From: a virus | IMG/VR virus record: IMGVR_UViG_3300050120_000110 | Coordinates: 1-38,410 of that record | Reading direction: 5' to 3' (one strand) | DNA: 38,410 nucleotides | Part shown: positions 20,121 through 36,677 of the stretch, one piece after another | Layout of the letters: each line of letters starts with the position of its first letter | Position numbering within the stretch: the stretch's first letter is position 1 | Made by a program: the position numbers and the translations under genes | Notes under the pieces: model-generated | Seen by the model: only the letters and a program-made list of their open reading frames with translations | Database searches by the model: none | Told to the model about the DNA's origin: nothing

Positions 20121-20329
20121 TTCGACCCCTTTGTCTCTACCATCGGTGGAACATAATCCATGCGACTTCGTTGACGCACTTTAGATTGCTCCGCATCCCG
20201 GTCAGCCGGTGCATTGAGGGCGCGATCGGCTGCGATGGCTGCGCGGGCAAGTTTCCTGCCATATCCTCCTGCCCCCCATGCATGCTCTTTCAAAATGGCA
20301 TCGATCTGGCCATCCGTAAGTTCTTTCAT
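20117..20329 (-). CDS. Small orphan (MKELTDGQID family)
   Basis: This 70-aa protein opens with MKELTDGQIDAILKEHAW and contains LARAAIAADRAL, a pattern common among small phage proteins of unknown role. The C-terminus is charged and probably disordered. The ATG overlaps the helicase stop (ATGA). Confidence 0.65.
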   Translation of the reverse strand: MKELTDGQIDAILKEHAWGAGGYGRKLARAAIAADRALNAPADRDAEQSKVRQRSRMDYVPPMVETKGSK

Positions 20330-22812
20330 AATTCAATCCTTTGTTTAAGTTCATCCGCTTCTTTACGCCCAAGTGTTTGGGCAGTTCCTATATCGATTCC
20401 ATACTTAAAATAAAACCGCCTCTGCGCCATGGATATGGTGTCGCCCTGCGCGGTACGCTGACCGCCCCATAACGCCATGGCTTCACGCAACTGAGCCTGC
20501 GCTTCTTGCCTTTCGCGGTGCCGCGCCTTGAGCGAAGCTTGAATCAATTTATCGGGATGAAACGCGGGCGGGGCGTCAATCTCGCCACGCAGCTTGGCCA
20601 GTGCTTCAGGGGTCAACTCGTACAGATCACCGTCAACTTCTTCGGGTAGGGAGCGACCTGCGGGTTCCGGCGCAAAACCGCAATAGGGGCAAGTTGCCAA
20701 TACTCGCTCGTACGCGCCAGTACACTCAGGACAGGTCCGCACCGGAATAACTTGTTCGACGGTTGCGCTGGTTCGACGCTCACGACGGTCCAGTGTCCAG
20801 ACCCTGGGGGCATCGGGTAATCCATGGCGGTGAACGTTCCCAACGTGGTCGATAATGATTGCATGTAACTTTCCTTCCATGGGACGCAACGAACGTCCGA
20901 ACTGTTGACAGAATAACCCGTAGCTTTGCGTCGGCCGCGCCATGCTGATAACTTCGATGGCTGGAAGGTCGAACCCTTCACCAAACAGATCAACGTTCAC
21001 CACTTGCAACAATTCACGTCGCCTGAGTCTTTGCAGGATCGAACGACGTAAACCGTCAGGTGTCTTCGCGCTAACCATTTCGGCGGGTATCCCGTGATGC
21101 CGAAATGCTGCCGCCATCTCAGTTGCGCTTTCTACATCCACAGTAAAAGTTATCCCCAACTTACCCGGCGCAATGCGTTGATAATGTTGCACCACGTCAC
21201 CGACGATATGGCTCTTATGAACGGCATGCGCGAGTTTGGGCGGAGAAAAGTCGCCCGAAGCGCTGAGCGGTACATCGCGCAGATCAATGTCAGAGGGCGG
21301 TGCAAATATCCGGTACTCAGTCAAATATCCATCCGCGATAAGCTCTCGCATCGTCGGCCCTTGCACCATCGTGTCCATAAGGCCATCGGCGTGACGACCG
21401 AGTCCGTTACCGTCAGCTCGGCACGGCGTGGCGGTAACGCCTAACATGCGGGCTTGAGGAAACATGGACGCCGCAGCACCCCATTTGTTTTTCTTCAAGA
21501 CGTGATGGCAGTTGTGCACAACTATTCCGTTTGCGACGTAAGTGTGATGCTCATCAACTTCAAAATTGTAGACATAACCGCCCTCACCACAACCTCCGGG
21601 TGTTCCAATATTTCGGTGTTCGTAAATCTCAACGTCGTCCAACCCAGTCCATTTAAAAACTTCTCCTTTTTCGCATCTTTCAATGAACCTTTCCCGGAAT
21701 GCGTCGAACCGTCCGCCTCCAGCGCTAGCCTCAGTTTCCAGTTCCCCATATCCGGCTTGTACACTGGCGGGAAACCGCTCCCGTCCCCGATTGTGTGTCC
21801 GGTCCGAATGTTCGGTTGAGGCACAAAACCCAACGCGGAAAACATGATCGACAAAGTTTCTTCGGCCAAAGTTGCTGGTTTTCCATTCCCCCCTTGAACT
21901 TTCGGCTTGTGCCCAATCTCCCGTAGACGGTTCGTCATTTTTGATACCGATCTCGGATCGTGCATTGGATTTTTCTTGCGCATGCGGTCTGACGCATATT
22001 CCAGATTTGTCTTCGTCGCAGTTTCGGATGAAATCCTTTTTCGGTATTCCGTAGAGCATTCCCGACAGCAATACCCCCGACCCGTCTTCGCGTAAAAAGC
22101 CATCAATGGTGCGTTCCGAATGACGGGCGCCCCGCAAATAAAACAGTTCATCAAAAAGTACCTCGTCTGTGCGTTCAAGTTCGTCGGCTCTGATCCAGCC
22201 CCGTTTGGTAAAAAAGGGATGGTTCGGTGTGCAGTTAAGTTCATGATGCGTTATTCTAATACGCACCATTCGTTTCGGTTGTGCTTTTTTGAACAAACGA
22301 ACTACTTTTCGTTCGACAAACTCCCCCGAAACTTCGTTGAAGGCGGTCACTGTATCGCCGACGCGAACGTCTTCAATAGGTCTCCCGTCAATGAGCGTAC
22401 CTGCGATAAAGCACTCATCCTGAACAACTAAAGATACCGATTGCGTCCAGGCGTTGGGTTCCATGCGCACCAGCGTGTCAACACCAGCCACAGCAACGCG
22501 ATTGCCTGGATCAACGTAATTTCGGCGCAGTTCGGCCAGGTGCTGCGTGGTGCAGGTATGGGCGACCGCCTTCGGCCCGACGATTCTGTGACGGACACCG
22601 TTACGGGCCAGCGCAAGACTAATCTGCACGACAAGTTCCTGACGATGCGCGATAGCTACCGACGCGCCCGGCTCACGGGCTATGATGTCGCTGAAAATCA
22701 CAGTCTTACCGCCGCCTGTAGGGAGTGTCAGCAACACGTTGCGATGACCCTGTGACCACGCGTTTAACACGCCGTCACGGCAATCTATCTGATAGGGACG
22801 AAGTTGTGTCAT
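20326..22812 (-). CDS. SF2 DExH helicase precursor with intein
   Basis: This 828-aa precursor is an SF2 helicase. It has MTQLRPYQ (Q-like motif), Walker A LPTGGGKT, a DE-CHH Walker B box split by an intein, GVTATP (motif III), FGEGFDLPAIEVI (motif V), QQFGRSLRP (motif VI), and a CPEC/CPYC zinc finger near the C-terminus. Removing the 301-aa intein gives a 527-aa protein of normal size and restores DECHH, so splicing is required for ATPase activity. The ATG at 22812 overlaps the 33-aa gene stop as ATGA; an ATG at 22878 would overlap that gene and is rejected. It probably acts in replication or restart. Confidence 0.9.
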   Translation of the reverse strand: MTQLRPYQIDCRDGVLNAWSQGHRNVLLTLPTGGGKTVIFSDIIAREPGASVAIAHRQELVVQISLALARNGVRHRIVGPKAVAHTCTTQHLAELRRNYVDPGNRVAVAGVDTLVRMEPNAWTQSVSLVVQDECFIAGTLIDGRPIEDVRVGDTVTAFNEVSGEFVERKVVRLFKKAQPKRMVRIRITHHELNCTPNHPFFTKRGWIRADELERTDEVLFDELFYLRGARHSERTIDGFLREDGSGVLLSGMLYGIPKKDFIRNCDEDKSGICVRPHAQEKSNARSEIGIKNDEPSTGDWAQAESSRGEWKTSNFGRRNFVDHVFRVGFCASTEHSDRTHNRGRERFPASVQAGYGELETEASAGGGRFDAFRERFIERCEKGEVFKWTGLDDVEIYEHRNIGTPGGCGEGGYVYNFEVDEHHTYVANGIVVHNCHHVLKKNKWGAAASMFPQARMLGVTATPCRADGNGLGRHADGLMDTMVQGPTMRELIADGYLTEYRIFAPPSDIDLRDVPLSASGDFSPPKLAHAVHKSHIVGDVVQHYQRIAPGKLGITFTVDVESATEMAAAFRHHGIPAEMVSAKTPDGLRRSILQRLRRRELLQVVNVDLFGEGFDLPAIEVISMARPTQSYGLFCQQFGRSLRPMEGKLHAIIIDHVGNVHRHGLPDAPRVWTLDRRERRTSATVEQVIPVRTCPECTGAYERVLATCPYCGFAPEPAGRSLPEEVDGDLYELTPEALAKLRGEIDAPPAFHPDKLIQASLKARHRERQEAQAQLREAMALWGGQRTAQGDTISMAQRRFYFKYGIDIGTAQTLGRKEADELKQRIEL
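21511..22413 (-). mobile_element. Intein inserted in the DE/CHH ATPase box
   Basis: The intein spans precursor residues 134-434 (ATG at 22812). Block A is CFIAGTLIDG with nucleophile Cys1. Block B is ELNCTPNHPFFT with the TxxH pair. Block F is YVYNFEVDEHHTYVANG and block G is IVVHN followed by Cys+1. All residues needed for standard splicing are present. The 158 or so residues between the N-domain (ending near DELFY) and C-domain are polar, lack a hydrophobic core and show no LAGLIDADG or HNH motif. They are the other-frame reading of a nested endonuclease gene. Confidence 0.93.
21522..22151 (-). CDS. Homing endonuclease nested out of frame in the intein
   Basis: This 209-aa protein is read in the +1 frame relative to the intein and lies wholly inside it. 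It has an N-terminal zinc ribbon (CFIC near 3-6, CCREC near 28-32), a NUMOD-like KKNPMHDPRSVSKMTNRLR linker, and a Vsr/EDxHD or DUF559-like nuclease core: KPDMGNWKLRLALEADGSTH (Asp134, Glu145, Asp147, His151), Asp159, then GWTTLRFTN. The ATG at 22151 has GAGGT about 10 bases upstream and coincides with the point where the intein N-domain ends. The stop is 9 nt before the last intein codon boundary region. An upstream ATG at 22244 lacks a good site. It probably cleaves intein-less helicase alleles. Confidence 0.85.
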   Translation of the reverse strand: MNCFICGAPVIRNAPLMAFYAKTGRGYCCRECSTEYRKRISSETATKTNLEYASDRMRKKNPMHDPRSVSKMTNRLREIGHKPKVQGGNGKPATLAEETLSIMFSALGFVPQPNIRTGHTIGDGSGFPPVYKPDMGNWKLRLALEADGSTHSGKGSLKDAKKEKFLNGLGWTTLRFTNTEILEHPEVVVRAVMSTILKLMSITLTSQTE

Positions 22813-22910
22813 GAAGTAAGTTGGATGATGGCGATACCCATGAGTGCGACCACTAACGATCCGCACGCGAGCAGCCATGCTACGGCGAGCGCTATGAAAA
22901 AGTAGTCCAT
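22809..22910 (-). CDS. 33-aa membrane peptide upstream of helicase
   Basis: This short gene encodes a 33-aa peptide starting MDYFFIALAVAWLL and ending IAIIQLTS, almost entirely hydrophobic, with one or two membrane passes. Its TGA overlaps the helicase ATG (ATGA), and it begins 4 bp after the stop of another small membrane peptide gene. This head-to-tail packing fixes the helicase start and supports translation. Function unknown. Confidence 0.6.
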   Translation of the reverse strand: MDYFFIALAVAWLLACGSLVVALMGIAIIQLTS

Positions 22911-23288: not shown

Positions 23289-23363
23289 GCCGACGTAGCA
23301 CTCTGGGAGTGCACCCCGCTGTCTACGGGGTTCAGGCGGGTCCGATTCCCGTCGTCGGCGCCA
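23289..23363 (+). tRNA. tRNA-Asp (anticodon GTC), CCA encoded
   Basis: The 75-nt sequence folds as a cloverleaf. The acceptor stem is GCCGACG/CGTCGGC (7 bp), with discriminator G and encoded CCA. The D stem is GCAC/GTGC, the anticodon stem CCCCG/CGGGG with loop CTGTCTA (anticodon GTC), and the T stem GCGGG/CCCGT with one G-T pair. Asp identity bases G10, G34, U35, C36 and G73 are present. Oddities are T at position 37 (normally a purine), A at 38 (C in E. coli tRNA-Asp), T instead of A14, and a T loop TCCGATT with C at position 55. It lies 28 nt after the rightward -10 box. Confidence 0.85.
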
Positions 23364-29884: not shown

Positions 29885-31228
29885 TTAGAACTCCAGCCCC
29901 TTGGCGTATCCAAAGGCATGCAACTGGGGCAATTGCTTGCGCATGCGTCCGGACCCTATGTCCAAACGATACATCGGATTGTTCGGAATTTTAACCTTAT
30001 CCACGGCCCCGTAGGCGGTCCTGCGAGCCGCTGTGATCGACCTGTCTGTGCCAGTCACAACCATGGTGTAATCTCCCGCCGTAACGTATCCTGGCAGGTC
30101 TACAACCTTGTCGCCGACCATGCACGGAGCTTCGCCCAACATCACTTCGGATAGGTGAATATGGAGCATATCTTCCGCCCCACGAATTGGTATACCGCAC
30201 AGGTCTTTGTTCGTGATACGCGAGTACGGAAAGTCGGGCAGAGCCATCAGTACGCTAACGCAAATCTCTCCCTCAACCATTTCAATCGTGTCTTGGCCGT
30301 TAAGGCCGTCTAGCATCCATTGGATCGGGTCTTCATTCTTGACGTGGGCCGTAACGTTGTGCTTGGTCGGCCAGCCGTCCCGCATCGTCCATTCCATAGG
30401 CCACGGGCCATCTTTGTCGATGATGCAGTTGTTGTCGATGTATCCGCAATAACCCAACTTATCGAGCGTCGGGCCGATGGGCAACAGGACTTCGCGGGCG
30501 AGACGGGAATTCTTGGTCACACGGCTCAAAGTGCCCATTTCGCCAGTCGCAACGCCCAAGTCGCCATCCATGAGTTTCTTGTATTCCCAATTCTCATAGA
30601 ACCACTGCGACCACCCACCCGGGCCGTACCATCCGCCAACCGCCATTTCCACGCCGTACTTGCGCTCTTGCAGAATGAATCCGTCTTTTCGAGCCGACTT
30701 GCGCAGCGCTTCGTTTTTCTTCCAACGAGACAGCATGTACACCAGATCGGCGGGATCTCCCGCCACGTAGGACAACGCCTTATCGGCGTCACCGGACGGC
30801 TTGGAAACGAGATATTCGGGATGTTTCTTGACAAACGCGATCGCGTCGTCATAGTCAAAAAACGACTTCGATTCCATGATCTTGATGCCCGCAGCCTTCA
30901 TTGCGGCCTGACCTTTGGCACGGTTCAATTCAAGCTGCGCGGCCTCTTGCGATGGCGCTAGTATGGGGTATCCCTGTGCTCGATACGGATCGAGCATATC
31001 GAGCCAGCGGGCATTGTCAGGCAAGTAAATCAGGTCCGCCCAGTCGAGCCACTTGGTTCGCAACTCGTTGAAGTCAGTGATCTTGTCGATCATCCCACGT
31101 CCGGCAATTCTTGGCGAACCGTCAGCATGGGGCTTGTCATACCACTTGACTTGCCAGCCCGCCATTTTGGCCCGCATAGCCATGTCCAGGCAGTTACTGG
31201 CGTTGTCGATTATTAGGAGACGTTTCAT
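29885..31228 (-). CDS. PurD-like ATP-grasp protein
   Basis: This 447-aa protein resembles phosphoribosylamine-glycine ligase (PurD): an N-terminal Rossmann-like start (RLLIIDNASNCLDMAMRAK), the ELNRAKGQAAMKAAGIKIME entry helix, the ATP-grasp strand YLVSKPSGDADKALSYV, GFILQERKYGVEMAVGGW, the LMDGDLGVATGEMGT loop and the Mg/ATP site YCGYIDNNCII with MEWTMRDGWPT. It diverges from cellular PurD in the first domain. It lies inside the late operon after the ejection proteins. Purine synthesis is one option; ligation of an amino acid or amine to another substrate, such as a modified base, is another. Confidence 0.75.
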   Translation of the reverse strand: MKRLLIIDNASNCLDMAMRAKMAGWQVKWYDKPHADGSPRIAGRGMIDKITDFNELRTKWLDWADLIYLPDNARWLDMLDPYRAQGYPILAPSQEAAQLELNRAKGQAAMKAAGIKIMESKSFFDYDDAIAFVKKHPEYLVSKPSGDADKALSYVAGDPADLVYMLSRWKKNEALRKSARKDGFILQERKYGVEMAVGGWYGPGGWSQWFYENWEYKKLMDGDLGVATGEMGTLSRVTKNSRLAREVLLPIGPTLDKLGYCGYIDNNCIIDKDGPWPMEWTMRDGWPTKHNVTAHVKNEDPIQWMLDGLNGQDTIEMVEGEICVSVLMALPDFPYSRITNKDLCGIPIRGAEDMLHIHLSEVMLGEAPCMVGDKVVDLPGYVTAGDYTMVVTGTDRSITAARRTAYGAVDKVKIPNNPMYRLDIGSGRMRKQLPQLHAFGYAKGLEF

Positions 31229-34140
31229 TGTGGCGGGTTAACAGTTTGCTTGAACGCTTCGGACGCGGCCCGAACAGTGTAAGGCAGCATGTGGGCGTCA
31301 ATCGCGGCTTTGTTTTTGATTGATGGGTCTTTGGCGTATTTCATGATTTCCGACATTACGTCAGGATTGTAGATCGCCTCGGCTATGATCTTTTCCCGTT
31401 GCTCGTTGCGCATCTTGTTCATGTATCGAGTCAGTACCCGAGCCGCACCATACGAAGGTGATGCAAACCTATTGCTTATACCTTTGGCCTCACTCAACGC
31501 TTGGGGGATTGATGTCCCGATGGCTTTGGAAAGGGGATCACCCAGTTTCTCAAACGATAGGAATTCAGGGGCCTGCACGCGGCCCGTCAGTTCCTTGGCT
31601 TGAAGAACAGTCTCCAACCCCCGAACCTGTGTCTTACCTAGAGACTGTTCCAACACCTTGCGATTCGCGGCCATGAACTCCAACGGGTTCTTTTGACTCG
31701 ATGCGTAGTCCACAATCGACCGTGCAACCGCCCTCTTTTCATCGGGGGTTCTAGCCGATCCGACTAGCGCCGTCATTTTGGATGGCGAATTGAACGCCCC
31801 TGTGATCGCCGTCTGCGGGTTCTCACTTCCGGCCAACTTTGATATTGCGCTCTTGGAAAATGCGCGTTGCTCATCGATCACACGGGCGCGATTCGCGGCC
31901 AACGACCGGGCCGAATTGTCTGCCGTGTCGATTTGTTTAGCAATCCATGGAACGGCTTGCAACGGCTCTTTGTACTCTCGTTTGAAAGCTTCTACGGCTT
32001 GCGGACTAATCTTTCCGTCCCGAACGACACGCTTGGAAAAAATATCCATAACGCCATTCTGCAATGCGTCAAGCGACGGTTTGTCATTTCCAGCCATTTC
32101 CAGATACTCGCGTACACCGGATGCGTCTCGGGGTTTGAACACAAGCGATGAGAAAATCTTGGAATTCTCGTTCGCAGACGTCGGTCCGAACCGACCTGGA
32201 GCAACCATTTCTCCACCAACCCCACGCTTGAATAACTGCGCGTACTTGGTTGCATAGAATTGATTGGCATCTTTCAGCATCTTCCCGACGTTACCGTACT
32301 GGGGGCCTTCCATTTCCGTAATCTTCGCCTTTAGTTGCTCGCGTATAGGCGCCAGCATCCGGGCTTGTTGCCCAGCATCAGCGTTACCCATTTTCGCGGC
32401 AGCGCCCAGTGAGGCCATATCCGCATTCGCCTGTTTATAAAGTGAATGAAACTCTTGTAATGTTGCGATTGGCTCGGATGGCTTGAACGGCACACCCTGG
32501 CGAATCTTGGCGCCGGTAGGGGCAATTTTGATTTGTGGTTTCTCGGCGAGTGGGGCATAGCGCCTAAGAATGTCGCCGATCACACCGGGTTTATCCTGAA
32601 ATGTGTTCCCCGAATCGCGATTTATCTTTCCGGCCAAATCCCGAATGTCGGACATATTGACCTTCAATCCTGCGGCATCGGCGGCAGAGTAAGCCGCACT
32701 ATAACGAGCCGAAGCTGCTTGTTTTGCCGTATCCGCCAGTTTGGATCGGGCTTCAAGCGCTTGGATACCCGCTTGTTCACTGTCCCCGCGTTGATACTTA
32801 TTGGCTAGCGAACGCTCCTGAGATTCAAGCCGCGTTGTGGCTGAATCGAGCCGGTCTATCTTTTCGGCCTGCGCCCGTTGCACTCCCGCCGTAGCGGGCG
32901 TTTCGACCACAGGGGGCGGAAACCGTACGTCAGTTTGTTTAGCAATGGCCGACTCAAGCCCTGCCTGTTTCTGGTGGGCTAGGTTGTGAGAGGCTTCGTC
33001 TGTGGCGCCGAAATGTTGCTCTGTAGCCTTGATACTCGGCGCGTTGCTCATACGTCCGAGCGTCAAGTTTTCCCGTAGCCCCGGAACCTTACCCGCGAGT
33101 GTTTCCGCTTGCGCCATATTCTGGCGTACTTGTGGCCCCGCCAAAGGTCCGCCTAATTCGGCGGCAGCGTCTTGCGCGGCAAGCGTGGCAGCGGCCTTGT
33201 CCCGTGACGCTTTGGATAGCCCCGTAATCCCAACGTCTGAGGCTTTCGATCTGACCCAGTTTGATCCGCCCGCTACGGCATCAATTCCCTTCATTGCCAG
33301 CATTGGTCCGGACAGGCTCCCGGCGAGTTCACCGATTCCCTCATAGCCCTTTGGCGCGATGTGCTTGCCCATAGTGGCGCCTTCACCGCTAAGTACGATT
33401 GCTGCGGCCTCTTTGGCGGCTGCGATCAAAGGTGTGGCCGACTTGGCAATCACGCCGGCGCTAGGAACCAGACTTGCCCCGGCAAATTCAGCCACGTGCC
33501 CCGCACCCTCAGCAAACAAGTTGGGTTTACCGTAGGCGTCCTTCGGAATCGGCATATTTGGGTTGTATTGCAAAACCTTCGGAGCAACATCCCGTGCATA
33601 ACGGGTGCTATAAGGAAGCGCTTCCGTATCGCGTTCCTTCATGGGCAAACCCATCGCTTGCATGCCTTTACGAATAGGGTAACTAGCAATGTCGTAACCC
33701 AATGGAAGTAAGCCCGGAATATAAGAAGCGCCTTTCTTTAACTGGTTCAAGGCGTAGGGAAGTACTGGGTCGGATTGTTGCGTCGGCCTACCTAATGGGG
33801 CTTTAACGGCATTGGCGTTTGACTGCGGACCCCAACCAGCGTTCGGGTCAGCCACAGGGGCTGCAGGTTGCGTAGTTCCCGCAGGAATACGTGATATCTC
33901 CCGACCGACAGCTGCGCGTTGCTGATCGTTGTATCGCGGGTCGGCCTGTTCCTGCTTTAGAATTTGCAATCTTCCCGCGTCGGCAGTCTCGCGTGATCCA
34001 CCCGCGTATCCGGTCCTTGGTGCGGGTTGCCCCGACAATTGACCTTGAAGAAGCTTGAACGCTTGCCCTTGTGTCGCGCCAGCAGGCCCCGTAATGTCGT
34101 AGGATTTTCCTTCCGGCGATGTGAATGTGAAGGTCGGCAT
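31225..34140 (-). CDS. Large internal virion / DNA ejection protein
   Basis: This 971-aa, mainly helical, Ala/Lys/Gln-rich protein is probably packaged and ejected to build a channel across the host envelope. The N-terminal PTFTFTSPEGKSYDITGP, then GATQGQAFKLLQ, is a recurrent start of podoviral ejection proteins. A moderately hydrophobic segment (AGASLVPSAGVIAKSATPLI, around 230-265) could interact with membrane. Long coiled regions follow. I see no lytic transglycosylase motif. It overlaps the ATP-grasp gene by 4 bp and follows two other ejection candidates. Confidence 0.7.
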   Translation of the reverse strand: MPTFTFTSPEGKSYDITGPAGATQGQAFKLLQGQLSGQPAPRTGYAGGSRETADAGRLQILKQEQADPRYNDQQRAAVGREISRIPAGTTQPAAPVADPNAGWGPQSNANAVKAPLGRPTQQSDPVLPYALNQLKKGASYIPGLLPLGYDIASYPIRKGMQAMGLPMKERDTEALPYSTRYARDVAPKVLQYNPNMPIPKDAYGKPNLFAEGAGHVAEFAGASLVPSAGVIAKSATPLIAAAKEAAAIVLSGEGATMGKHIAPKGYEGIGELAGSLSGPMLAMKGIDAVAGGSNWVRSKASDVGITGLSKASRDKAAATLAAQDAAAELGGPLAGPQVRQNMAQAETLAGKVPGLRENLTLGRMSNAPSIKATEQHFGATDEASHNLAHQKQAGLESAIAKQTDVRFPPPVVETPATAGVQRAQAEKIDRLDSATTRLESQERSLANKYQRGDSEQAGIQALEARSKLADTAKQAASARYSAAYSAADAAGLKVNMSDIRDLAGKINRDSGNTFQDKPGVIGDILRRYAPLAEKPQIKIAPTGAKIRQGVPFKPSEPIATLQEFHSLYKQANADMASLGAAAKMGNADAGQQARMLAPIREQLKAKITEMEGPQYGNVGKMLKDANQFYATKYAQLFKRGVGGEMVAPGRFGPTSANENSKIFSSLVFKPRDASGVREYLEMAGNDKPSLDALQNGVMDIFSKRVVRDGKISPQAVEAFKREYKEPLQAVPWIAKQIDTADNSARSLAANRARVIDEQRAFSKSAISKLAGSENPQTAITGAFNSPSKMTALVGSARTPDEKRAVARSIVDYASSQKNPLEFMAANRKVLEQSLGKTQVRGLETVLQAKELTGRVQAPEFLSFEKLGDPLSKAIGTSIPQALSEAKGISNRFASPSYGAARVLTRYMNKMRNEQREKIIAEAIYNPDVMSEIMKYAKDPSIKNKAAIDAHMLPYTVRAASEAFKQTVNPPQ

Positions 34141-35430
34141 TTAATGCACCTTCACCGACCAACCTTCGGGGAGTCCACCTGTTGCTGATCCGCCCGATGT
34201 GTCATCAACATAGGCGTTCGGGTTATCTGCGAATGATGGATCAATCTTCATGGCCTTGGCTTGTTTGGCGTATTTCGCGTTGATGTTCTTACGCGCCACA
34301 TCGAATACGTTTTTGTCCATCGCGTCGAGCACATTCATGAGTTGCTGCTTGTTGGTTTCGGTGTAATCGCCAGTTACCATTTTCGTAATGGCGTTTATCC
34401 CACGGTCGTACATTGAGCCAAAATTTTTATTAGCCTTGTATTGCTCATTCGTGTTCCTGCCGGATTGCAAATACATCGTATAAAGTTGCTGAATCTTCGC
34501 TGTAGACGCCGGATCGGCTGTGGCAATTAGCCCACGCAGTTGCTGTGACTGTTGCTGAGCTAATGTCACAGGGGTCATTTCCTTAGTCTCTCTGGCCGCG
34601 AACTCATTCATGTTCCCGGCAGTCGGCGCTTTTCCCCCGGACGCCGCTTGATTCGCACGCTGTTGTTCGATTTCGAGACGGGTATCGCCTTGTTGCAACC
34701 TACCCCCGGCAAGTTTAAGCATTTCCTGTCGATAAGCCTGAGTGTTCTCAATTCCCATCAAACGCATGTCGCGATTCAACGCCTGATTCTCTTGCGTTAC
34801 GACATTGCGTTGTTGGGTCATTAACGCGAGATTTTGTTTCGCTTCTTTGCTCCCCACGGAAGCAACGATCTGTTTATAAATTTCGGGCCGTAACTCGTCC
34901 GGGTAACCCTTCCTATCCATGTAGGCAATGATTTGTTCGCTTGATGCATCATTCGTAAGCGCGGGCGCACCTTGCGGTTGAACTGCGGGAACTGGCGCCA
35001 TCCCCGGAGACGACTGTGGTTGAGTCGCGGGTGCTCGTTGTTGCATCCCCTGTACCGTCCGATACGGGGGAATTCCTTGCGGTTGCTGTGCCGCGCCGGG
35101 CATAGCCGGGGCGCTCATCGGAACGCCCTGTTGCTGACGCTGAGTCATGAGCATTTGCGGTACGGCCAACGACTGCGGTTGATTTTGAACCTGTGGCACT
35201 TGCATCGGCACTGACGCTTGACCCGGAGGCGGGGCGTGCATGAAACCGCCCACACCTTGGTTTACTTGTAACTGGCGGGCCTGTGCGGCACGCGCCTGTT
35301 CCAACTCATACGCCCGCTGCTGCATCAACTGGGCGCGTTCCGCCTGCTGCTGCTGTTGCCCCATGCGCTGCGTATAGGCGTCCATACCTTGCGCAAAGCC
35401 CTGAGCGTAACCCGGTGCGAACAGAGCCAT
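34141..35430 (-). CDS. Gln-rich internal virion protein
   Basis: This 429-aa protein has a Gln/Pro/Met-rich N-terminal half (after MALFAPGYAQGFAQGMDAYT) and a helical C-terminal half (IIAYMDRKGYPDELRPEIYK, QQLMNVLDAMDKNVFDVARK). It ends just 1 bp before the 971-aa gene and its start overlaps the 415-aa gene stop. Composition and position match middle-sized podoviral ejection proteins. Confidence 0.65.
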   Translation of the reverse strand: MALFAPGYAQGFAQGMDAYTQRMGQQQQQAERAQLMQQRAYELEQARAAQARQLQVNQGVGGFMHAPPPGQASVPMQVPQVQNQPQSLAVPQMLMTQRQQQGVPMSAPAMPGAAQQPQGIPPYRTVQGMQQRAPATQPQSSPGMAPVPAVQPQGAPALTNDASSEQIIAYMDRKGYPDELRPEIYKQIVASVGSKEAKQNLALMTQQRNVVTQENQALNRDMRLMGIENTQAYRQEMLKLAGGRLQQGDTRLEIEQQRANQAASGGKAPTAGNMNEFAARETKEMTPVTLAQQQSQQLRGLIATADPASTAKIQQLYTMYLQSGRNTNEQYKANKNFGSMYDRGINAITKMVTGDYTETNKQQLMNVLDAMDKNVFDVARKNINAKYAKQAKAMKIDPSFADNPNAYVDDTSGGSATGGLPEGWSVKVH

Positions 35431-36677
35431 TACAGATACCCCGTGTTGCCAAACCCGCTTGTATCGCCGAAGCTGTTATTCAAACCGCCCGACGATCCAC
35501 CGTAACTTGAGTTGTAACCGTAGCCCCCAATCGAACCTTGCATACCTGACGGGCCGCTGAATGCGTTGTTCAACCACGACCCTGGCGTGTTGTAGGAGGT
35601 TGCGGCCCCTTGCGCGACTTGACCAATAAGATTGCCGGTCCCGGCATTGGCCTGAGCTTGCGCGTTCTGTTGGAACTGTGCGGCGTTCACACCCTGCCCC
35701 ATGTATTGCTGCGCCTGAGTATTGGTGTTGTAGAAATTCTGATTCAATCCGCTGAGCCCCTGTGAATAGGCCGTTGCGTTCTGCGCGGGCATACCCGCAA
35801 TCATTTGCTGTGCTGCCAACGGAACACCCGCCGATTGCTGTGTATAGCCCGGCATGGCCGCAAGATCGGCATTTTGCAACTGTCCCTGCGTACCACCGGC
35901 ATTGCTCGCTGTGGCAAGACCTTGAAGACCTGTGGCTTGTCGCTGGAGTTGTTGATTCTGCCAGTCGATATTGAAGTTGCTCATCGCCTGGTTGTATTCC
36001 GATCCGCCCACAGGGGAGGCACCTAACCCGCGAGCCGCTTGACCCGCGTTGACCTGATCGGACAACTGCTGTTGCGTTCGGTTATATAACGCGCTTTGCG
36101 GATCAAGCGACGTTTGGTACAACTGATTGCCTGCACCGTACAGGTTCTGCATTTGCTGACCGGCAAGACCCGCTTGTTGCCCGATGGCGGTTGCGGCTTG
36201 ACCGTATTGCTGGCCGGCAGCGTTTGCGGCCTGCTGGTACGGTTGGTAATTAATTCCCTGCTGTTGCGCCAGAGTCTGAGCGTATAAGGGGCCCGCTGCG
36301 TTTTGCGCACCGTAATTGTTTTGTTGCTGCTGATTGAAGTTGGATTGAAATCCAAGGTCAGCTGTTGCTAATCCCGGCGTGGCGTATTGAGACGATAGTC
36401 CGCCTTGCCCGCCACCAGATGGTGCGCCTTGTGGTTGAGAGTAACCGCCCGCGTCCATACCCCCACCGCCAATATTCTGGATACCGCCTCCCGCAGAGGG
36501 TTGGCCGCCTTGCGCCTGAGCCTGTCCCGGCGGCGCATATCCGGGCGGAAGATACGCTTGCCCACCGTTCCAGCTACCACCAGGAACATATCCTTGGCCG
36601 GTGGCGTTGCTCCCCGATCCACTCTGAGAATTTAGTACGGAGCCGAGAATAGCCCCACCTGCGATGATCCACGGCAT
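35430..36677 (-). CDS. Gly/Gln/Asn-rich internal virion protein
   Basis: This 415-aa protein opens with a hydrophobic MPWIIAGGAILGSVLN segment, then low-complexity Gly/Gln/Ser and a Gln/Ala-rich helical middle (QQYGQAATAIGQQAGLAGQQ), ending in Gly/Ser/Tyr/Asn repeats. The N-terminal hydrophobic helix and the compositional bias resemble small ejection proteins. It is the first of three consecutive ejection candidates and starts 1 bp after the cupin stop. Confidence 0.65.
   Translation of the reverse strand: MPWIIAGGAILGSVLNSQSGSGSNATGQGYVPGGSWNGGQAYLPPGYAPPGQAQAQGGQPSAGGGIQNIGGGGMDAGGYSQPQGAPSGGGQGGLSSQYATPGLATADLGFQSNFNQQQQNNYGAQNAAGPLYAQTLAQQQGINYQPYQQAANAAGQQYGQAATAIGQQAGLAGQQMQNLYGAGNQLYQTSLDPQSALYNRTQQQLSDQVNAGQAARGLGASPVGGSEYNQAMSNFNIDWQNQQLQRQATGLQGLATASNAGGTQGQLQNADLAAMPGYTQQSAGVPLAAQQMIAGMPAQNATAYSQGLSGLNQNFYNTNTQAQQYMGQGVNAAQFQQNAQAQANAGTGNLIGQVAQGAATSYNTPGSWLNNAFSGPSGMQGSIGGYGYNSSYGGSSGGLNNSFGDTSGFGNTGYL

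Follow-up and report, generated by a model that had tools for sequence, protein, structure and literature searches.

A predicted homing-endonuclease gene nested in the +1 frame of inteins from phages and bacterial genomes

The window, i.e. the whole 38,410-nt stretch of virus record IMGVR_UViG_3300050120_000110 analyzed here, contains a helicase ORF that includes an intein, and a gene for a predicted homing endonuclease lies inside this intein in the +1 frame. The same layout is present in at least 95 distinct relatives besides the window phage, and it very probably represents a two-frame mobile intein, with the nuclease overprinted on the intein. The overprinted arrangement appears to be a new form of mobile intein, while out-of-frame endonucleases without an intein and split inteins with a free-standing EDxHD endonuclease were already known. 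The features of the window locus are as follows (a slash marks a splice junction):

20326-22878, minus strand: SF2 helicase gene hosting the intein (ResIII/Helicase_C, RadD/YejH-like), from Pfam, PHROG and NCBIfam matches
21511-22413, minus strand: intein of 301 aa, with boundaries from Cys1 and HN/C and a Hint fold match
22129-22413, minus strand: N-terminal splicing domain of the intein (Cys1, block B TPNH), from AlphaFold pLDDT values of 94-98 for residues 1-90, lower after 90, and a 36-row intein alignment
21664-22113, minus strand: intein-frame linker of ~150 residues, predicted to be disordered and free of stops (pLDDT 41-49 for residues 101-250)
21511-21663, minus strand: C-terminal splicing domain of the intein (strand GLDDVEI, block F VYNFEV, block G VVHN), with pLDDT ~80-97 for most of residues 251-301
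21522-22151, minus strand: nested homing-endonuclease gene, 209 aa plus stop, offset +1 relative to the intein frame, from a DUF559 match, AlphaFold and relatives
22056-22145, minus strand: zinc-ribbon-like motif CxxC...CxxxC of the nuclease (C3, C6, C28, C32), from near-invariant columns of a 53-row alignment
21675-21719, minus strand: putative catalytic motif E145-x-D147...H151...D159 of the nuclease, invariant in 53 sequences and supported by the fold match to 3r3p
21525-21663, minus strand: dual-coding zone, where nuclease GWTTLRFTN...STILK and the intein C-domain use the same DNA in two frames, from suppressed substitution rates and a fixed register
22160-22164, minus strand: Shine-Dalgarno-like sequence GAGGT, 8 nt before the nuclease ATG and within intein codons D-E-V, from family-wide enrichment

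The 850-aa helicase ORF is unbroken, runs through the nuclease gene, and matches Pfam ResIII and Helicase_C, the PHROG family phrog_16 (DNA helicase, 8e-82) and NCBIfam RadD. The intein is inserted at DE/C of the Walker B motif, between the N-extein ...VVQDE and the C-extein CHHVLKK.... A reading of the sequence alone had already taken the insert for an intein, in agreement with its profile matches to Pfam Intein_splicing (PF14890) and to the intein C-terminal region TIGR01443, and with its Hint fold. In the AlphaFold2 model of the intein frame, residues 1-90 and most of residues 251-301 are predicted with high confidence (apart from a pLDDT dip at 271-280), and nearly all of residues 101-250 score below 50; the folded parts of the model match known Hint domains, including those of the RecA and DnaB inteins. 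Among 36 aligned inteins C1, H65, H300 and N301 are invariant, and T62 is conserved at 90% or more. The insert thus possesses Cys1, a TxxH block B, the penultimate His, the terminal Asn, a Cys/Ser/Thr residue at +1 and the Hint fold, as expected of a class 1 type intein, and is predicted to be self-splicing.

The nuclease ORF runs from an ATG at 22151 to a stop codon at 21522-21524, wholly within the intein, and its position, length and +1 frame relative to the helicase-intein ORF are exactly those given by the sequence-only reading. The same reading proposed a nuclease core of the Vsr/EDxHD or DUF559 kind; Pfam DUF559 indeed matches the window protein (E=4e-11) as well as all 53 aligned members of the family, and the AlphaFold2 model (mean pLDDT 91.4) retrieves as top fold matches 3hrl, which is the best sequence match as well, and the EDxHD homing endonuclease I-Bth0305I (3r3p). 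A lack of homologs and of a fold had been named in the sequence-only reading as refuting the +1 frame, and the frame stands up to this check, with abundant homologs and a confident predicted fold; by pLDDT, the same DNA encodes a confidently folded enzyme when read in the +1 frame and a largely disordered chain when read in the intein frame. Combined with the invariant putative catalytic residues and the NPM motif, which is conserved in the 53-row alignment, these sequence and model data place the protein among the EDxHD/DUF559 (PD-(D/E)xK-like) endonucleases, with predicted cleavage activity. Three details of the initial description needed adjustment. The cysteine motif exists, but instead of two CxxC pairs it comprises one CxxC and one CxxxC; the gene starts near the end of the intein N-domain but not exactly there, as the ATG falls at intein codon 88, slightly inside the modelled domain; and the intein frame under the nuclease is a motif-free linker for approximately residues 101-250, but not over the last ~139 nt of the nuclease, which encode the intein C-domain too.

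Searches with tblastn found the nuclease in 40 phage records, those of Vibrio phages, Pseudomonas MR14 and Corynebacterium phi673 among them. The host gene over the nuclease is annotated there only as a helicase, a hypothetical protein or similar, and none of these 40 public records (0/40) carries a nuclease annotation under the match, which suggests that the nuclease is systematically missed by annotation. In all nine phages examined, the window included, it lies at +1 and wholly within the helicase-intein ORF. IMG/VR as well as bacterial and archaeal genomes were scanned with profiles, the nuclease being the only query, so the offset is unbiased in these scans; they brought the relatives to the 40 phage ones plus over 100 from metagenomes and genomes. 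About 24 short chromosomal DUF559 proteins among the genome matches were left out as not belonging to the nuclease family. Classification with separate profiles for the nuclease, the intein N-domain and the intein C-domain yielded 122 loci in which a single ORF spans the nuclease and contains both intein domains; they come from phages, IMG/VR contigs and bacterial genomes, and the nuclease is offset by +1 in 122 of 122, by 0 or +2 in none. Three loci cut by contig ends agree with this layout, and L145, missed by the C-domain profile, is likewise nested at +1. Removal of nuclease copies of >85% identity left 97 non-redundant loci, whose kinship is reduced only by this cut-off. The insertion point is DE/C of Walker B in 94 of the 97, the residue at +1 to the intein is Cys in 94 and Ser in 3, and the host genes are mostly helicases, with SNF2-like and clamp-loader genes represented too. 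Three full-length relatives of the nuclease are free-standing (L040, L056 and L147); L040, considered as a candidate exception to nesting, turned out to be such a relative without any intein. The nuclease genes of L056 (3968-4579) and L147 (3355-3996) are located directly upstream of an intein-less helicase, which they overlap or abut and which keeps an intact Walker B motif (DE-S-H or DE-A-H); this placement suggests homing without an intein. In L033, L035 and L049 (weaker in L042) an in-frame LAGLIDADG domain near the P-loop lies upstream of the two-frame intein at Walker B in the same gene.

The intein frame is open far beyond chance. Over the nuclease, the 97 non-redundant loci contain 0 stops in the intein frame (an unbroken ORF being part of the inclusion rule for this count), compared with 721 expected from permutation of synonymous codons, 985 expected from extein codon usage, and 1344 present in the third frame; the linker of the window locus alone has 0 versus 6.4-12.5 expected. 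No full-length nuclease flanked by intein domains was found with a broken ORF, except through a contig end.

Substitution rates by host codon position (1/2/3), from counts over 16 independent pairs, reveal which protein is under selection in each segment. The exteins (.219/.153/.463) and the intein N-domain (.183/.142/.330) vary most at the third position; in the linker under the nuclease the pattern is rotated to the nuclease wobble (.333/.167/.140); in the shared C-domain all three positions are suppressed (.131/.080/.108); and in the C-domain beyond the nuclease the rates are.031/.037/.344. In the pair L002/L005, 31 of 41 changes in the overlap alter the intein linker yet are silent in the nuclease. 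Thus, selection acts on the nuclease through most of the overlap and on both proteins in its last part. The nuclease ends within the intein C-domain in 96 of the 97 loci, with a median of 127 nt of dual coding, and although intein lengths range from 200 to 461 aa across loci, 73 of 96 have exactly 131 nt between the conserved nuclease Trp (GWxxxRF) and the end of the intein. Such a fixed register fits a single origin of the overlap and would explain why the offset never changes: the intein sequence must be kept in the shared C-domain, so the frames are presumably locked in phase.

As for its expression, translation of the nuclease most probably begins internally, directed by a Shine-Dalgarno sequence embedded among the intein codons. 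A match of at least 4 nt precedes the nuclease start in 64 of 95 loci versus 18.7% of control starts, and one of at least 5 nt in 40 of 95 versus 5.8%, the start codon having been chosen partly by Shine-Dalgarno strength, with an identical rule for the control. In the DEV-codon motif, GAG and GAA occur at a ratio of 12:1, against ~1:1 in the exteins. By the simple rule 31 of the 95 loci lack a match, so initiation may differ among loci. The nuclease could alternatively be made by programmed +1 ribosomal frameshifting, as a fusion of the helicase N-half, intein-N and nuclease; its frame is always +1, and in some loci it stays open for up to 130 codons upstream of the presumed start. This mechanism is nevertheless improbable, because 42 of 95 loci have a stop in the nuclease frame no more than 5 codons before the start, which leaves hardly any space for a shift, and because Shine-Dalgarno-like motifs are strongly enriched before that start.

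The remaining alternatives concern the reality of the two frames and the nature of the insert. We regard it as very unlikely that the intein frame is merely a decayed in-frame arrangement, split by an old frameshift, that has lost splicing and whose nuclease is either a remnant or just a free gene. A few degenerate copies do exist, such as L077 (3646-4245), a 200-aa intein on a Planctomycetota contig that retains only a shrunken nuclease remnant and is likely a decay stage towards a mini-intein, but the family at large has kept invariant catalytic residues in 53 sequences, invariant Cys1, penultimate His and terminal Asn in 36 aligned inteins, and purifying selection in both frames, and no in-frame member was found among the classified loci. 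Group I introns commonly carry nuclease genes out of frame; still, an RNA intron with a nuclease gene is an extremely improbable identification for this insert, in which no stop interrupts the host frame and that frame specifies both complete Hint domains, N- and C-terminal, along with the residues of the splice junctions. With the intein frame complete, an intron is also unnecessary. An artificial split of the frames by a sequencing or assembly indel, a general possibility for any metagenome contig and one that the sequence-only reading had named as fatal to its proposal, has next to no chance of being true: cultured phages, metagenomes and bacterial genomes together supply 97 non-redundant loci with the same +1 offset, and its presence in many independently sequenced phages, including the cultured Vibrio CP-T1, Pseudomonas MR14 and Corynebacterium phi673, excludes such an error.

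The two-frame mobile intein would operate as a single ORF encoding helicase, intein and helicase, from which the Hint domain would excise the intein after translation and so rejoin the helicase across Walker B. A separate +1 gene, laid over the central loop and C-terminal splicing domain of the intein, would supply the homing endonuclease, which would not be fused to the intein; this enzyme would cut the conserved DE-C-H or DE-A-H site of intein-free alleles, after which the entire element would be copied in during repair. Selection on the overlap maintains the nuclease protein, with the intein frame in the linker needing only to avoid stops, and the demands of the shared C-domain on the intein would keep the two frames phase-locked.

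Divergence patterns and alleles at the site are consistent with mobility. Between L141 and L142 the linker/nuclease part differs by 0.2% and the exteins by 10.2%, and between L002 and L003 the values are 1.5% and 15%; such contrasts between element and exteins fit recent transfer in some pairs. Recent homing is not universal, as in pairs such as L135/L140 the overlap has diverged further than the exteins. Distances of the nuclease and of the intein N-domain are correlated (Mantel rho.36, 0/1000 permutations), which indicates that nuclease and intein travel together. The intein-minus helicase alleles that the sequence-only reading suggested looking for were found at the same site, together with mini-inteins devoid of the endonuclease gene. 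Related empty alleles read DEAHH, DEGHH or DECHH; the intein-less relatives of the window helicase with these motifs are L158, L159, L160, L162, L163 and L165, and the nearest are only ~44-57% identical to it, homing in the window phage itself being not directly seen. A Gly at +1 of the empty site would be incompatible with splicing and could mark resistance, and a Cys there could be the scar of a lost intein. Nuclease-less mini-inteins occupy the site in Vibrio phages K459, K389 and K453, in 13VV501A and in PS65A.1. The helicases of Vibrio phage 13VV501A (L169) and of PS65A.1 (L170) carry two inteins each, one at the P-loop besides the mini-intein at Walker B, and the P-loop intein of PS65A.1 carries LAGLIDADG.

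Canonical mobile inteins, with in-frame LAGLIDADG or HNH endonucleases, resemble this element in having Hint splicing domains at a conserved position in an enzyme acting on nucleic acids, a nuclease between blocks B and F and, as predicted here, spread by homing. They differ in that the nuclease described here is of the EDxHD/DUF559 type, has its own start and stop and lies at +1 in each of the 122 classified loci, and the in-frame reading of the same DNA is predicted to be disordered. In fractured genes, as reportedly described by Dassa et al. 2009, which is cited in PMC3653736, split inteins have a free-standing EDxHD endonuclease between their halves. The likeness is in an EDxHD-type nuclease encoded as a separate gene together with an intein in phage DNA-metabolism genes, and the difference in the host gene, which is there divided into two ORFs, whereas here a single ORF of 850 aa spans the nuclease. 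At the equivalent DE/C site, the uvsW genes of Salmonella phage S16 (L167, 1814-4540) and Proteus phage PM2 (L168, 1814-4546) are fractured, and a TnsA-like/NUMOD3 nuclease ORF overlaps both split-intein halves; the different nuclease family and frame offset argue that this form probably had an independent origin. A structural counterpart of the nuclease is intron-associated: I-Bth0305I (3r3p) shares the fold of the catalytic core (Foldseek probability 1.00, E 1.6e-3) and the E/D/H/D set that is invariant in the nuclease, but it is 16% identical, and the window protein possesses an additional N-terminal zinc-binding-like and helical region. The nearest published precedent is provided by the out-of-frame HNH endonucleases of phage DNA methylases known as the ShiLan domain and the Pacc40 insertion, where no self-splicing domain, intein or intron was found and the insertion was inferred to be retained in the protein (PMC11855218). 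They have in common with the present case a homing endonuclease concealed in a different frame of a host gene that is kept open, but here the nuclease is of another family (DUF559/EDxHD, not HNH), and a complete intein surrounds and partly overlaps it. In the literature searched, an out-of-frame endonuclease inside a true intein was not found described; the novelty could be lowered by bioRxiv 10.1101/2025.01.02.630785, on actinobacteriophage inteins of non-canonical architecture, which lies outside that literature.

Inteins were known to have their homing endonuclease either fused in frame or encoded as a free-standing gene between the two halves of a split intein, and this layout is a third possibility. 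A step between the fused and the split arrangements, as originally proposed, is plausible; the split inteins observed at the equivalent site have a nuclease of another family, and the layout itself is family-wide, phase-locked and stable, not transient. We consider it likely that two-frame inteins constitute a distinct, widespread and stable class of mobile elements, with a fixed register and a phase locked by the C-domain, which has spread at Walker B among ATPases of phages and bacterial genomes, helicases and clamp loaders included, whose separate frames let the nuclease and the splicing domain evolve separately, and which may feed the origin of split inteins. The 97 non-redundant loci offer natural cases for the study of overprinting, in which a functional protein was placed atop a disposable linker, followed by ~127 nt that encode two folded domains at once in a constant phase. 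The gain, retention and loss of endonucleases by inteins can be tested by comparing, at a single site, empty alleles, mini-inteins, two-frame inteins, the fractured form with a different nuclease and helicases beside a free-standing nuclease relative.

Concerning the rest of the window, megablast against the phage collection found no close relative of the window phage, and the plasmid collection gave no match. Four successive large minus-strand ORFs (447, 971, 429 and 415 aa) without a PHROG match at 1e-5 occupy positions 29885-36677 of the window, and a tRNA-Asp (GTC) gene lies on the plus strand at 23289-23363, just outside the helicase gene.
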